64,000 nucleotides of DNA. Source: an uncultured Acidimicrobiaceae bacterium (GTDB taxonomy: Bacteria > Actinomycetota > Acidimicrobiia > Acidimicrobiales > RAAP-2). A program made the translations under genes and the position numbers. Positions 10,260 through 50,572 of this stretch are shown here, in pieces. Below the pieces are notes generated by a model. That model had not been told where the DNA came from. It did not search any database and was given only the letters and a program-made list of their open reading frames with translations. The DNA is taken from the NCBI GenBank assembly GCA_903894295.1, contig CAITPI010000052.1, forward strand, positions 1 to 64,000, in the 5' to 3' direction. The first letter of the stretch is position 1; each line of letters opens with the position of its first letter.

Positions 10260-11324
10260 TCAGAACTGCCGCAGGAAGCGGACGTCGTTCTCGATCAGGG
10301 CTCGCATGTCCGAGATCTGGTGGCGCATCTGGGCGCACCGGTCGATGCCGAAGCCAAAGGCGAATCCGGTCCACTCATCCGGGTCGATGCCCACGGCGGC
10401 GAAGACCGCCGGGTCCACCATCCCGCATCCTCCGAGCTCGATCCATCCCGTCTGGGAACAGGTTCGACAACCCTGGCCATGACAGATGGTGCAGGTGATC
10501 TCGAACTCGGCCGAGGGTTCGGTGAACGGGAAGTAGGCCGGCCGCAGCCGGGAGTGGATGTCGGGTCCGAAGTAGGCCGCCGTGAAGGCCTCGATGGTTC
10601 CCGCCAGATCGGCGAAGGTGATTCCCCGGTCAACCACCAGTCCTTCGATCTGGTGGAACACCGCAAGATGACGGGCATCGGGCGTGTCACGCCGGTAGCA
10701 GCGGCCGGGCATCACGGCATGGAGCGGCAGCGTCCCGGTGGCGACGGCCACTTCCATCTGGTGGATCTGGACCGGACTGGTGTGGGTCCGCAGCAGGGTT
10801 GACTCGGACTCCCCGACCTCCAGATAGAAGGTGTCCCACATGCCCCGGGCCGGATGGGCCGGAGGAATGTTGAGCGCTCCGAAGTTGTACCAGTCGGTCT
10901 CGACCTCGGGTCCTTCGGCCACCGTGAAGCCCATGGCGACGAAGACGTCCTCGAGTTCATCACGGGTCTGGGTGACAACGTGGAGGTGGCCCCGGCCTTG
11001 CGGGCTGGGCAACATGCCGGGACGGAACTCGGTGAGGTCCAGCTTCCCGCTTTCGAGCTCGGCGGCCAGTTCGGCCTCGGCCAGCACCGTGCGGCGCTCG
11101 TCCAGTTCGGACTCCAGTTCGGTCCGCACGGCGTGGAGCGTTTGGCCCAGCACTTTCCGCTCGGCCTCGCCGAGGGTGCCGAGTTGCCGGGAGAAGAGGG
11201 CGAGGGGCGACCGCTTGCCCATGAGCGCCGTGGCCAGTTCCCGCAAACCTTCGGTCGACGTTGCCGCCGCGATCGACTGCCGGGCCTCGGCCCGGAAACT
11301 CTCGAGGTCCAGGGTCTCGCTCAC
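10260..11324 (-). CDS. pheS: Phenylalanine-tRNA ligase alpha subunit
   Basis: Catalytic subunit of a class-II synthetase. An N-terminal coiled coil (about residues 10-90) is followed by the catalytic core with the motif-2 region GRCYRRDTPDARH and motif 3 in GFGIDRCAQMRH. A CTICHGQGCRTCSQTGW cluster is as seen in other PheS proteins. I place the start at the GTG (VSETLDLESF, 354 aa) because it overlaps the stop of a 12-codon upstream ORF as GTGA. An ATG three codons earlier (MWAVSE) is possible, but neither site has a clear ribosome binding site. Confidence 0.95.
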   Translation of the reverse strand: MSETLDLESFRAEARQSIAAATSTEGLRELATALMGKRSPLALFSRQLGTLGEAERKVLGQTLHAVRTELESELDERRTVLAEAELAAELESGKLDLTEFRPGMLPSPQGRGHLHVVTQTRDELEDVFVAMGFTVAEGPEVETDWYNFGALNIPPAHPARGMWDTFYLEVGESESTLLRTHTSPVQIHQMEVAVATGTLPLHAVMPGRCYRRDTPDARHLAVFHQIEGLVVDRGITFADLAGTIEAFTAAYFGPDIHSRLRPAYFPFTEPSAEFEITCTICHGQGCRTCSQTGWIELGGCGMVDPAVFAAVGIDPDEWTGFAFGFGIDRCAQMRHQISDMRALIENDVRFLRQF

Positions 11325-11359
11325 TGCCCACATCCCGGCTGACGTTGCTCGCTCCGCAT
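11321..11359 (-). CDS. Short upstream ORF coupled to pheS (12 aa)
   Basis: The peptide would be MRSEQRQPGCGQ. Its ATG lies 6 nt after a TACGCT -10 box, so it would be translated from the 5' end of a leaderless mRNA. Its TGA overlaps the pheS GTG (GTGA), which suggests that ribosomes finishing it reinitiate on pheS. It contains no Phe codon, so classical phenylalanine attenuation is not indicated. Translation is inferred from architecture only. Confidence 0.4.
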   Translation of the reverse strand: MRSEQRQPGCGQ

Positions 11360-11365
11360 TTCTCC

Positions 11366-11371
11366 AGCGTA
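11366..11371 (-). promoter_or_regulatory. -10 box before the pheS upstream ORF
   Basis: TACGCT on the minus strand, 6 nt before the ATG of the short ORF. No obvious -35 is present. Confidence 0.45.
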
Positions 11372-47410: not shown

Positions 47411-48538
47411 CTACGCCGCCGGCGTCACTCCTTTTGGCAGCTTGTGGGCGATGTAGGCCAGGCCGATGCACATCTCGTCGGTCGAGCCATCGCCCCAGGT
47501 CACGAAGTGGGGAGCCACCCGCCGCAGATCCGGCAGTTCCTGCTCCAACTGCGGGTTGTAGGTGCAGGTGACCCGCACCGGCTCTCCCGCCGTCACCGGG
47601 ACCGGATGGGCAAGGTTGTAGGCCCGCTGGTAGTGGAAGTTGTACTCCGGCACGTCAAGGACCGTCCGGGCCCGCGAAGTGCCCGGGTCGAGCACCATCT
47701 TGAAGGAAACACCCAACAGGTGCATGTGGGCCTGGGTCCGGACGATGTATCCCGAGTTGGTGATGACCGAGTCACAACTGGCGGTGTCCGAGGCGGGCGG
47801 GCTGGTCGGGTCGATGTGACACAGCCCGTCGATGCCGGCGGCTTCCTGTTCGGCGGCCGGGCCGAAACGGACGCCCTGGTTCACCAGCGATGCCTCCGGA
47901 CTGCACAGAGGTCCCGAGCTGCCCGTCGGACACGGGATGTTGGGTGCGGCCAGCATGATGTCGAGTTTGAGCGGCTTGATCGGTGCGTTGGCGGGCACGG
48001 TCTTCAGCACCAGACGGTTCCGGACCGGCCGGTGGCCGACCAGAAGGTTGTAGTGGACCTGGATCACCACGAGGCTCCCCTTGGGCAGGGGAATCCCCGT
48101 GCCCAGAGGCAGCACGTCGGCCCCGTGACCCGGAGCCCACTCGCTCAGCATCGGGTTCTTCAGGAACTCGAAGATGGACGTGCCGGGCAGCGCCGCTTCC
48201 CCGAAGCATGTCCACCCATGGCGCAAGACGCCCGAGCGGAGGGCGGCGGTTGCCGCCGCCGGTGGAACGAGGAACAGCGCCGCGTGGTGGTCTTCGACGC
48301 TTCCGGCCGTGAACTTGCTGGAGACGATGTACGAGTCGTGCCGGACGTGGGGGTCGATCAGCGTGCAGTGGTAGTCGTCGGTCGTCCCGGCCTCGGCCCG
48401 GGGCTGATACCAGGGTGTGTGCAGCGAGATGGTGGTCACCGGGGTGCCCGCCGCCCCGGATGTGGCACGCGGGACGACGACGGCCACCACAGCGACCACC
48501 AGGGCAAGGGTCACCACCGCCCAACTCCGCAATTTCAC
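47411..48538 (-). CDS. Secreted copper type-II monooxygenase-like protein (PHM/DBH fold)
   Basis: A 375-aa protein with a Sec-type signal peptide (MKLRSWAVV followed by a long hydrophobic run). It shows the six copper-ligand signatures of the peptidylglycine/dopamine monooxygenase core: adjacent His in EDHHAALF and His in VIQVHYNL for the first site, and HxH in QAHMHLLGVSF plus Met in STDEMCIG for the second. Several Cys could form disulfides. Electron donor and substrate are unknown. The GTG start lies 6 nt after a TAGGCT box. Confidence 0.75.
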   Translation of the reverse strand: MKLRSWAVVTLALVVAVVAVVVPRATSGAAGTPVTTISLHTPWYQPRAEAGTTDDYHCTLIDPHVRHDSYIVSSKFTAGSVEDHHAALFLVPPAAATAALRSGVLRHGWTCFGEAALPGTSIFEFLKNPMLSEWAPGHGADVLPLGTGIPLPKGSLVVIQVHYNLLVGHRPVRNRLVLKTVPANAPIKPLKLDIMLAAPNIPCPTGSSGPLCSPEASLVNQGVRFGPAAEQEAAGIDGLCHIDPTSPPASDTASCDSVITNSGYIVRTQAHMHLLGVSFKMVLDPGTSRARTVLDVPEYNFHYQRAYNLAHPVPVTAGEPVRVTCTYNPQLEQELPDLRRVAPHFVTWGDGSTDEMCIGLAYIAHKLPKGVTPAA

Positions 48539-48544
48539 CTGCGA

Positions 48545-48550
48545 AGCCTA
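48545..48550 (-). promoter_or_regulatory. -10 box of a predicted leaderless promoter (copper monooxygenase-like gene)
   Basis: TAGGCT on the minus strand ends 6 nt before the GTG at 48538. Confidence 0.5.
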
Positions 48551-48648
48551 CATCGGCGTTTCCGCCGGTCCCATTCGCCCTCCCGTCCGGGACGCCTGAT
48601 TCAGCCCGAAGCTCTGGGGCCCGCCCCGGAATCCGGAGGGCAGGCTGC

Positions 48649-48654
48649 TAGTTT
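48649..48654 (+). promoter_or_regulatory. -10 box before the ABC upstream ORF
   Basis: TAGTTT ends 6 nt before the ATG of a 16-codon ORF. Confidence 0.45.
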
Positions 48655-48660
48655 TCTTCC

Positions 48661-48711
48661 ATGCGCTCCCTTGCTGCATGTCTGCCCCGTGCCTGTGAGG
48701 CTGGCGCGTGA
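48661..48711 (+). CDS. Short upstream ORF coupled to the ABC ATPase gene (16 aa)
   Basis: The peptide would be MRSLAACLPRACEAGA. The ATG is 6 nt after a -10 box and the TGA overlaps the GTG of the ATPase gene as GTGA, the same layout as before pheS. Two cysteines are present. No Shine-Dalgarno sequence is visible for the ATPase gene itself, so coupling would explain its translation. Confidence 0.4.
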   Translation: MRSLAACLPRACEAGA

Positions 48712-49631
48712 TCAAGGCCACCAACCTCTCCAAGAGCTACGGCAACAACCGGGCCGTCGACAACCTGGACTTCGAGGTCCGGGACGGCGTGGTGACCGGA
48801 TTCCTCGGCCCGAACGGCTCGGGCAAGTCGACCACCATGCGACTGATCATGGGACTCGACCACCCGACCAGTGGCTCGGTCACCCTTGACGGACGGCGCT
48901 TCCACGACCTCAAGTGGCCGCTCCGTGAAGTCGGTGCGCTGCTCGAAGCCAAAGCGGTGCATCCCGGACGATCGGCCCGGATGCACCTGCTGGCCCTGGC
49001 CCAGACCAACGCCATCTCCAAACATCGGGTGGACGAGGTCCTCGAACTCGTGGGCCTCACCGCCGTGGCCCACCGCCGGGCCGGAAAGTTCTCCCTCGGA
49101 ATGAGCCAACGCCTGGGCATTGCTTCGGCCCTGTTGGGCGACCCCAAGACGTTGCTCTTCGACGAGCCCATCAACGGACTGGACCCGGAAGGGATCCTCT
49201 GGGTGCGGAACCTGCTCCGGAGTCTCGCCGACGAAGGTCGCACCATCTTCGTCTCGAGCCACCTCATGAGCGAGATGGCCCAGACGGCCACCGATCTCGT
49301 GGTCATCGGACGGGGCCACCTGATTGCCGACACCACGGTCGAGCAATTCATCGCCTCCAACACCGAGGCCACGGTGCGGGTGCGTGCGCCCGAGGCCGAC
49401 AAGCTGTCCGGGATCCTCCAGGCCGCCGGTGCCCGGATTCACCCCGAACCCGATGGCGGGCTACTGGTGACCAACCTCGACGCACCGCAGATCGGCGATC
49501 TGGCCTGGGCCAACGGTGTCGCCCTGCACGAACTCAGCCCCCAGATGGCCAGTCTGGAAGAGGTCTTCATGGAACTCACCTCCGACGCCGTCGAGTACCA
49601 CGGTTCAACCACCGCAGGAGCTGCCCAATGA
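48708..49631 (+). CDS. ABC transporter ATP-binding protein
   Basis: A 307-aa ATPase of the DrrA/CcmA-like (ABC-2 type) class. Walker A is GPNGSGKST, the signature FSLGMSQRLGIAS, Walker B KTLLFDEP, and the switch His follows in SSHLM. The C-terminal 80 residues form the usual accessory domain. The GTG start (VIKATNLSKSYG) is supported by overlap with the short upstream ORF. It is coupled to the permease gene (ATGA). The exported substrate is unknown. Confidence 0.92.
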   Translation: MIKATNLSKSYGNNRAVDNLDFEVRDGVVTGFLGPNGSGKSTTMRLIMGLDHPTSGSVTLDGRRFHDLKWPLREVGALLEAKAVHPGRSARMHLLALAQTNAISKHRVDEVLELVGLTAVAHRRAGKFSLGMSQRLGIASALLGDPKTLLFDEPINGLDPEGILWVRNLLRSLADEGRTIFVSSHLMSEMAQTATDLVVIGRGHLIADTTVEQFIASNTEATVRVRAPEADKLSGILQAAGARIHPEPDGGLLVTNLDAPQIGDLAWANGVALHELSPQMASLEEVFMELTSDAVEYHGSTTAGAAQ

Positions 49632-50572
49632 CCGCCGTTGAAACTCCCGTCGCCACGCCCCCGGCTCCCCAGCCGGCCGGCCGGGCCGGATTTCGCCTCG
49701 AGACGGTCTCCGAGTGGACCAAACTCCGCTCGATCCGCTCCACATGGATCTGCCTTGCCATCATCGTGGTGCTCAGCATCGGACTGTCGGCTCTGGTCTG
49801 TTTCGCCCAGGCCAAGCACTGGACGGTGGCCTGTGGTGACCGGCTGACCTTCGACCCGGTGAGCGCGTCCCAGATCGGAGCCCTGCTGTCGCAGTTCGTG
49901 GTGGGGGTGCTCGGTGCGCTCGTAATCACCTCGGAGTACGCCACCGGTCTGATCCGCACCACCTTTGCCACCGTGCCCCGACGGACGACGGTGCTCGGGG
50001 CGAAGGCCCTGGTGGTCAGCGTGGTGATCCTGGTGGTCAGCGAGATCACGATCTTCATCTCGTTCCTGGTCGGCCAGTCCGTACTGACGGCCATGGGCGG
50101 GAAGGTCTACCCGAGCGCAGCGGCCTTCGAGGCCAAGGTGGCACCCTTTGTCGGACGCCATCTGAGCTCGTGCCCGACCATTCCCATGAGTCGTCTTCCG
50201 ATTCCGGTGGCGAACTTCTCGACGCCCGGAGCGCTACGGGCCCTCATCCTTGGCGGTATTTACCTGACCATCCTGACGCTGGTCGCCGTCGGCTTCGGGG
50301 TCATTCTCCGTCACACCGCCGGCACGATCTCGCTGTTTGTCGGCGTGCTCCTGATCCTGCCGCTGTTGATCCAGTTGCTGCCGTCGAACTGGTCCGGGCC
50401 CATCGCCAAGTACCTTCCCAACGGTCTCGGCCAGGCCATGACCTCGCCCAACGGACTGAACTACGACGGAAATCCGCTCATGTCCCCGTGGACCGCCCTG
50501 GTGATACTCGTCATCTACGTCGTGGTGGTGCTCGGCGTCGGAGCAACCCTGTTGAACCGTCGGGACGCCTGA
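49628..50572 (+). CDS. ABC-2 type transporter permease
   Basis: A 314-aa membrane protein with about six hydrophobic segments (first near residues 38-60, last ending at LVILVIYVVVVLGVGATLL). The first cytoplasmic part SEWTKLRSIRSTW is the usual N-terminal motif of these permeases. It overlaps the ATPase gene by 4 nt, giving a complete two-gene exporter. Confidence 0.88.
   Translation: MTAVETPVATPPAPQPAGRAGFRLETVSEWTKLRSIRSTWICLAIIVVLSIGLSALVCFAQAKHWTVACGDRLTFDPVSASQIGALLSQFVVGVLGALVITSEYATGLIRTTFATVPRRTTVLGAKALVVSVVILVVSEITIFISFLVGQSVLTAMGGKVYPSAAAFEAKVAPFVGRHLSSCPTIPMSRLPIPVANFSTPGALRALILGGIYLTILTLVAVGFGVILRHTAGTISLFVGVLLILPLLIQLLPSNWSGPIAKYLPNGLGQAMTSPNGLNYDGNPLMSPWTALVILVIYVVVVLGVGATLLNRRDA

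Follow-up and report, generated by a model that had tools for sequence, protein, structure and literature searches.

RESULTS

Layout of the transporter locus

The window, i.e. the whole 64-kb stretch of DNA that was analyzed, carries on its forward strand an operon consisting, by Pfam domains, of an ABC ATPase and an ABC-2 membrane protein, with no sulfur gene in it. The first gene (48708–49631) encodes an ABC transporter ATP-binding protein of 307 aa (PF00005, E-value 1.3e-28), for which none of the 25 NCBIfam models listed reached its cut-off. The second (49628–50572) encodes an ABC-2 family membrane protein of 314 aa (PF12730, E-value 1.5e-6; PF12679, E-value 1.9e-6). No match to an Rfam family was found anywhere in the window.

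Upstream of the ATPase gene we observed an extended −10 promoter element, TGC-TAGTTT (48646–48654, with TAGTTT at 48649–48654), a spacer TCTTCC (48655–48660) and an ATG at 48661 that opens a leaderless-type mini-ORF of 16 codons, MRSLAACLPRACEAGA (48661–48711). Its stop codon TGA (48709–48711) overlaps the GTG of the ATPase gene (48708–48710), forming the stop/start junction GTGA (48708–48711). The layout described in the original prediction (TAGTTT, 6 nt, ATG, 16 codons and a TGA overlapping the GTG) is thus present exactly in the sequence. The ATPase cannot start further upstream, since GTG 48708 is the first start codon after an in-frame stop, TGA 48696–48698. A 4-nt overlap is repeated at the next junction of the operon, where the ATG of the permease overlaps the TGA of the ATPase as ATGA. 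Given the distance from the −10 element to the ATG, the mRNA is predicted to start at or adjoining A48661.

Inside the mini-ORF, 7 nt 5′ of the ATPase GTG, there is an SD-like GAGG (48697–48700). Its pairing with the anti-SD sequence (−5.6 kcal/mol) is about average in this genome, a little stronger than the median of −5.0 for non-leaderless genes.

Leaderless starts in the source genome

The assembly of the source genome comprises 2.68 Mb in 137 contigs; in the named collection it is closest to assemblies from metagenomes that carry the label Acidimicrobiaceae or Acidimicrobiales. In 822 kb of the source genome, with 714 starts called by a home-made gene caller, we counted TANNNT boxes by their distance to the start codon. 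The box was situated 6 bases before the start in 51 of the 714 genes and 7, 8 and 9 bases before it in 15, 13 and 9 genes, while at most other distances there were 0–3 cases. Leaderless-type starts are therefore common in this genome, with N6 as the modal spacing, and the TAGTTT-N6-ATG at 48649–48661 has the spacing usual for them. At the start of the divergent gene 47411–48538 (Cu2_monoox_C domain) there is a TAGGCT-N6-GTG (48536–48550, reverse strand); thus, both genes flanking the intergenic region look leaderless.

Conservation of the mini-ORF within the genus

We collected the ATPase/permease pair from 10 genomes, the source genome included, of one uncultured Acidimicrobiales genus; the orthologous ATPases are 74–78% identical to that of the window. 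As these loci share ancestry, they do not represent ten independent events. At all ten loci a TANNNT box is followed after 6–7 nt by an ATG, which opens a short ORF whose end lies on the ATPase start; no locus has a second leaderless-type start within 135 nt. When upstream regions were shuffled, TANNNT-N6/7-ATG in the coupled frame with no more than 20 codons appeared in ∼0.1% of them (about 0.001 per species).

The mini-ORFs have 16, 8, 8, 8, 8, 7, 8, 8, 18 and 8 codons, i.e. 16 in the source genome, 8 in seven genomes, 7 in one and 18 in one, and the frame is kept in both longer versions. An alignment of orthologous loci had been suggested with the original prediction as a check; in it the short ORF was kept in ten of ten genomes with no loss of frame, and the junction was RTGA in nine. 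The remaining orthologue (7 codons) has TGATG, with the stop 3 nt earlier.

In the 10-species alignment, TANNNT and the G at −14 are found in all ten sequences and the T at −15 in eight. The columns of the ATG are identical in all ten, but over the 21 columns that follow the average drops to 5.6/10; codons 2–7 of the versions with 7–8 codons have a mean identity of 43%. The encoded peptides (MRPCGAPG, MTPVRARR, MPDRRESR, MHAADDGAGGRAPREVRP and others) have nothing in common but the Met. By this comparison, selection keeps the start codon together with its frame and the stop/start overlap, and not the peptide. Outside the genus, versions of the mini-ORF were seen in two further genera, one of 12 codons with a GTG start and one of 28 codons.

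The same layout at other genes

On the reverse strand of the window, the pheS gene (10263–11324; TIGR00468) is preceded by a leaderless-type mini-ORF, MRSEQRQPGCGQ (11321–11371), with TACGCT-N6-ATG upstream and a GTGA overlap with pheS. We observed this arrangement in 14 of 14 genomes of the genus: a TANNNT box (TACGAT, TACCAT or TACGCT), a spacer of 6–7 nt, an ATG and a mini-ORF. Across these genomes the mini-ORFs have 9–21 codons in eight distinct lengths, and all end as RTGA on the start of the pheS frame; their peptides contain no Phe among 229 residues. In other families of the order, a coupled leaderless-type ORF was found at four of the 29 pheS loci viewed (L278, L279, L299 and L305, the first of them ending on TTG) and was absent from the remaining ones.

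A gene for a 333-aa protein with no Pfam match, located on another contig of the source genome (G000:C8:34060), has a coupled leaderless-type mini-ORF starting with GTG at eight of ten loci; of the two exceptions, one reads through in frame and one has no mini-ORF. The version in the source genome has 18 codons. Seven loci (L229–L234 and L236) have ORFs of just four codons, encoding VRAR, VRDR, VTAT, VIAS, VKAG and VTPR, and ending as ATGA on the start of the orthologous gene.

Two other sites in the source genome were set aside after inspection of relatives by eye. At a class-V aminotransferase gene (C134:63346; L162:3300–3350), the coupled mini-ORF exists in the source genome only, while the starts in relatives appear to be leaderless and directly in frame; a recent frameshift, or an error in the assembly, may thus account for this mini-ORF. 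The layout at the coupled-looking site C113:4759 was not seen in relatives.

Genome-scale excess of coupled ORFs

To assess coupled ORFs genome-wide, we used the source genome together with stretches of other genomes of the genus, family and order (∼2.4 Mb, 2,036 called genes). Upstream RTG codons were classified by the outcome of the ORF that they open, and the number of −10 boxes at spacings 6–9 was compared with the expectation derived from spacings 12–41. For in-frame starts there were 355 boxes versus 40 expected. RTGA-coupled short ORFs of leaderless type were also in excess (32 versus 8.9 expected, Poisson P = 1.9e-9), whereas other, uncoupled short ORFs were not (23 versus 19 expected, P = 0.21). 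With the transporter family and one double count removed, 26 coupled ORFs remained versus 8.9 (P = 2.6e-6); within the genus alone the numbers were 22 and 6.0.

In the source genome alone the excess was modest (11 versus 4.5 expected), so that ∼4 of the 11 sites listed there may be due to chance. An earlier proportion test, confined to this genome, compared upstream out-of-frame starts that have a −10 box with those that lack one, by the fraction ending as RTGA; P was 0.02 with one set of gene calls and 0.15 with a second. As the outcome depended on the gene calls, we turned instead to the spacing test, which covers several genomes.

DISCUSSION

Probable delivery of ribosomes to the transporter gene

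Based on these comparisons, we consider it likely, with a probability of roughly three in four, that 48661–48711 is a leaderless, translationally coupled mini-ORF whose disposable peptide is made on the way to termination and re-initiation on the transporter gene. Transcription from the extended −10 promoter would begin at A48661 or a neighbouring base, and ribosomes would initiate in the leaderless mode on the 5′-terminal AUG. They would then synthesize a throw-away peptide of 16 residues, halt at the UGA (48709–48711) and re-initiate on the GUG of the ATPase, which the stop codon visibly overlaps; in the source genome this last step may be aided by the internal GAGG. A conserved start, frame and overlap along with a freely changing peptide is what ribosome delivery predicts, and delivery is favoured for this reason. 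The original prediction had offered delivery of terminating ribosomes alongside sensing by the peptide. The first part is supported by the conservation at all ten loci and by the wider excess of RTGA-coupled ORFs; sensing finds no such support, as five of the ten mini-ORFs lack Cys and the peptide is not conserved.

Could the mini-ORF be incidental? The −10 box would then simply give a short 5′ leader, with initiation of the ATPase on its own GAGG Shine–Dalgarno sequence. A ribosome binding site had originally been thought to be missing from the ATPase gene; this fails in the source genome, where the GAGG 7 nt from the GTG is of average strength, although the claim fits seven of the ten species if GGAG, GAGG or AGGA is taken as the criterion. 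Among 27 homologues that are more distant and lack the mini-ORF, 19 have one of these 4-mers before the ATPase, which speaks for this explanation; among the ten genus orthologues only three do (Fisher P = 0.056), and yet the ATG and the frame are kept in all ten. Neither is an invariant ATG beside such variable columns expected of neutral sequence. We regard this explanation as unlikely.

Explanations that give the peptide or the leader RNA a role of its own fare worse. It had been suggested that the two Cys codons make the ORF sensitive to charging of Cys-tRNA: ribosomes slowed at these codons when charged Cys-tRNA is scarce would alter expression of the transporter. Leaderless polycysteine ORFs are cited as attenuators of mycobacterial operons (Canestrari 2020, as cited in PMC9031893), and the ten peptides contain 7 Cys in 87 residues versus 2.9 expected (binomial P = 0.027, uncorrected and for related sequences). 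Cys is, however, neither conserved nor contiguous: adjacent Cys codons occur in none of the ten, the two in the source genome are separated, and the operon has no sulfur gene. In eight of the ten species the ORF is just 7–8 codons long and its stop lies on the gene start, so that an attenuator would not fit in between; we consider Cys-responsive attenuation very improbable. A nascent peptide that arrests the ribosome upon sensing the transported compound or another ligand, as was also suggested, would suit a short leader ORF in front of a transporter gene; still, the orthologous peptides share no motif beyond the Met, and 7–8 residues in eight of ten species would be short for arrest in the exit tunnel, so that we find this reading even harder to credit. 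Classical attenuation by a terminator hairpin was rejected: in each of the ten orthologues the gene start is overlapped by the stop of the leader ORF, and nine of the leaders fold in an unremarkable way (z-scores from −0.9 to 1.4, and −2.4 in the tenth). An RNA leader or riboswitch was rejected on the same folds and on the lack of Rfam matches in the window. Cys sensing, ligand sensing and terminator attenuation all fit poorly, because most versions have 7–8 codons and end on the gene start. As the layout is kept in related soil bacteria while the peptide changes, its role is probably the loading of ribosomes.

Relation to known systems

In mycobacteria, leaderless small ORFs with a 5′-terminal RTG and 5–50 codons have been described, and those joined to the next gene by an RTGA junction were defined as ‘coupled’ (Shell 2015, PMC4633059); of 220 such ORFs in Mycobacterium tuberculosis, 23 were coupled (P < 0.0003), and an example was given in which the linkage is kept while the peptide is not conserved. 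The transporter mini-ORF is probably of this type: it lies directly upstream of the gene, its length (16 codons, 7–18 in orthologues) is within the 5–50 aa range, its opal stop overlaps the next start as RTGA in nine of ten orthologues, and coupling is kept between relatives while the peptide diverges, at both the transporter and the pheS loci. Unlike the mycobacterial cases, the present ones belong to Acidimicrobiales, and their 5′ ends and ribosome occupancy are predicted from sequence; at two loci the layout is conserved across 10 to 14 genomes of one genus, ORFs can be as short as four codons, and uncoupled short ORFs of leaderless type are not in excess.

Expression of M. tuberculosis ppe2 needs translation of the uORF uPPE2, and re-initiation at their overlap was shown with reporters (PMC11260477). 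The resemblance, shared with termination–reinitiation at NTGA (Huber 2019, PMC6728339), lies in a uORF that is out of frame and ends in a stop overlapping the following start; uPPE2 is SD-led and situated behind a B12 riboswitch, while 48661–48711 is of leaderless type and in a window without an Rfam match. With the polycysteine attenuators, as they are described in PMC9031893, it has in common that an operon is headed by a short leaderless ORF, but it has no contiguous or conserved Cys codons and the operon has no sulfur gene. In the literature searched, two papers mention both leaderless and Acidimicrob-; judged by title and abstract, neither deals with such mini-ORFs. The class as such is already known from mycobacteria; the putative transporter mini-ORF is a new and unusually widely conserved case of it.

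Significance

Many leaderless short ORFs of mycobacteria look like by-products of pervasive translation, and the number of those that matter is debatable. Here a test that uses nothing but sequence parts function from by-product: coupled ORFs are above background and keep their frame through changes in length, whereas uncoupled ones are not above background. This contrast is in favour of ribosome delivery as the function under selection, whatever peptide is made. It also provides defined loci for direct tests, namely the transporter, pheS and the gene with four-codon ORFs. One may tentatively go further, to a proposal that we would hold as possible rather than probable: mini-ORFs of 4 to ∼20 codons could be a dedicated, selected ribosome-loading device in this genus, used even at the essential pheS, with RTGA-coupled ones kept whatever they encode, and with the length or stop context of the mini-ORF tuning re-initiation and so the level of expression.
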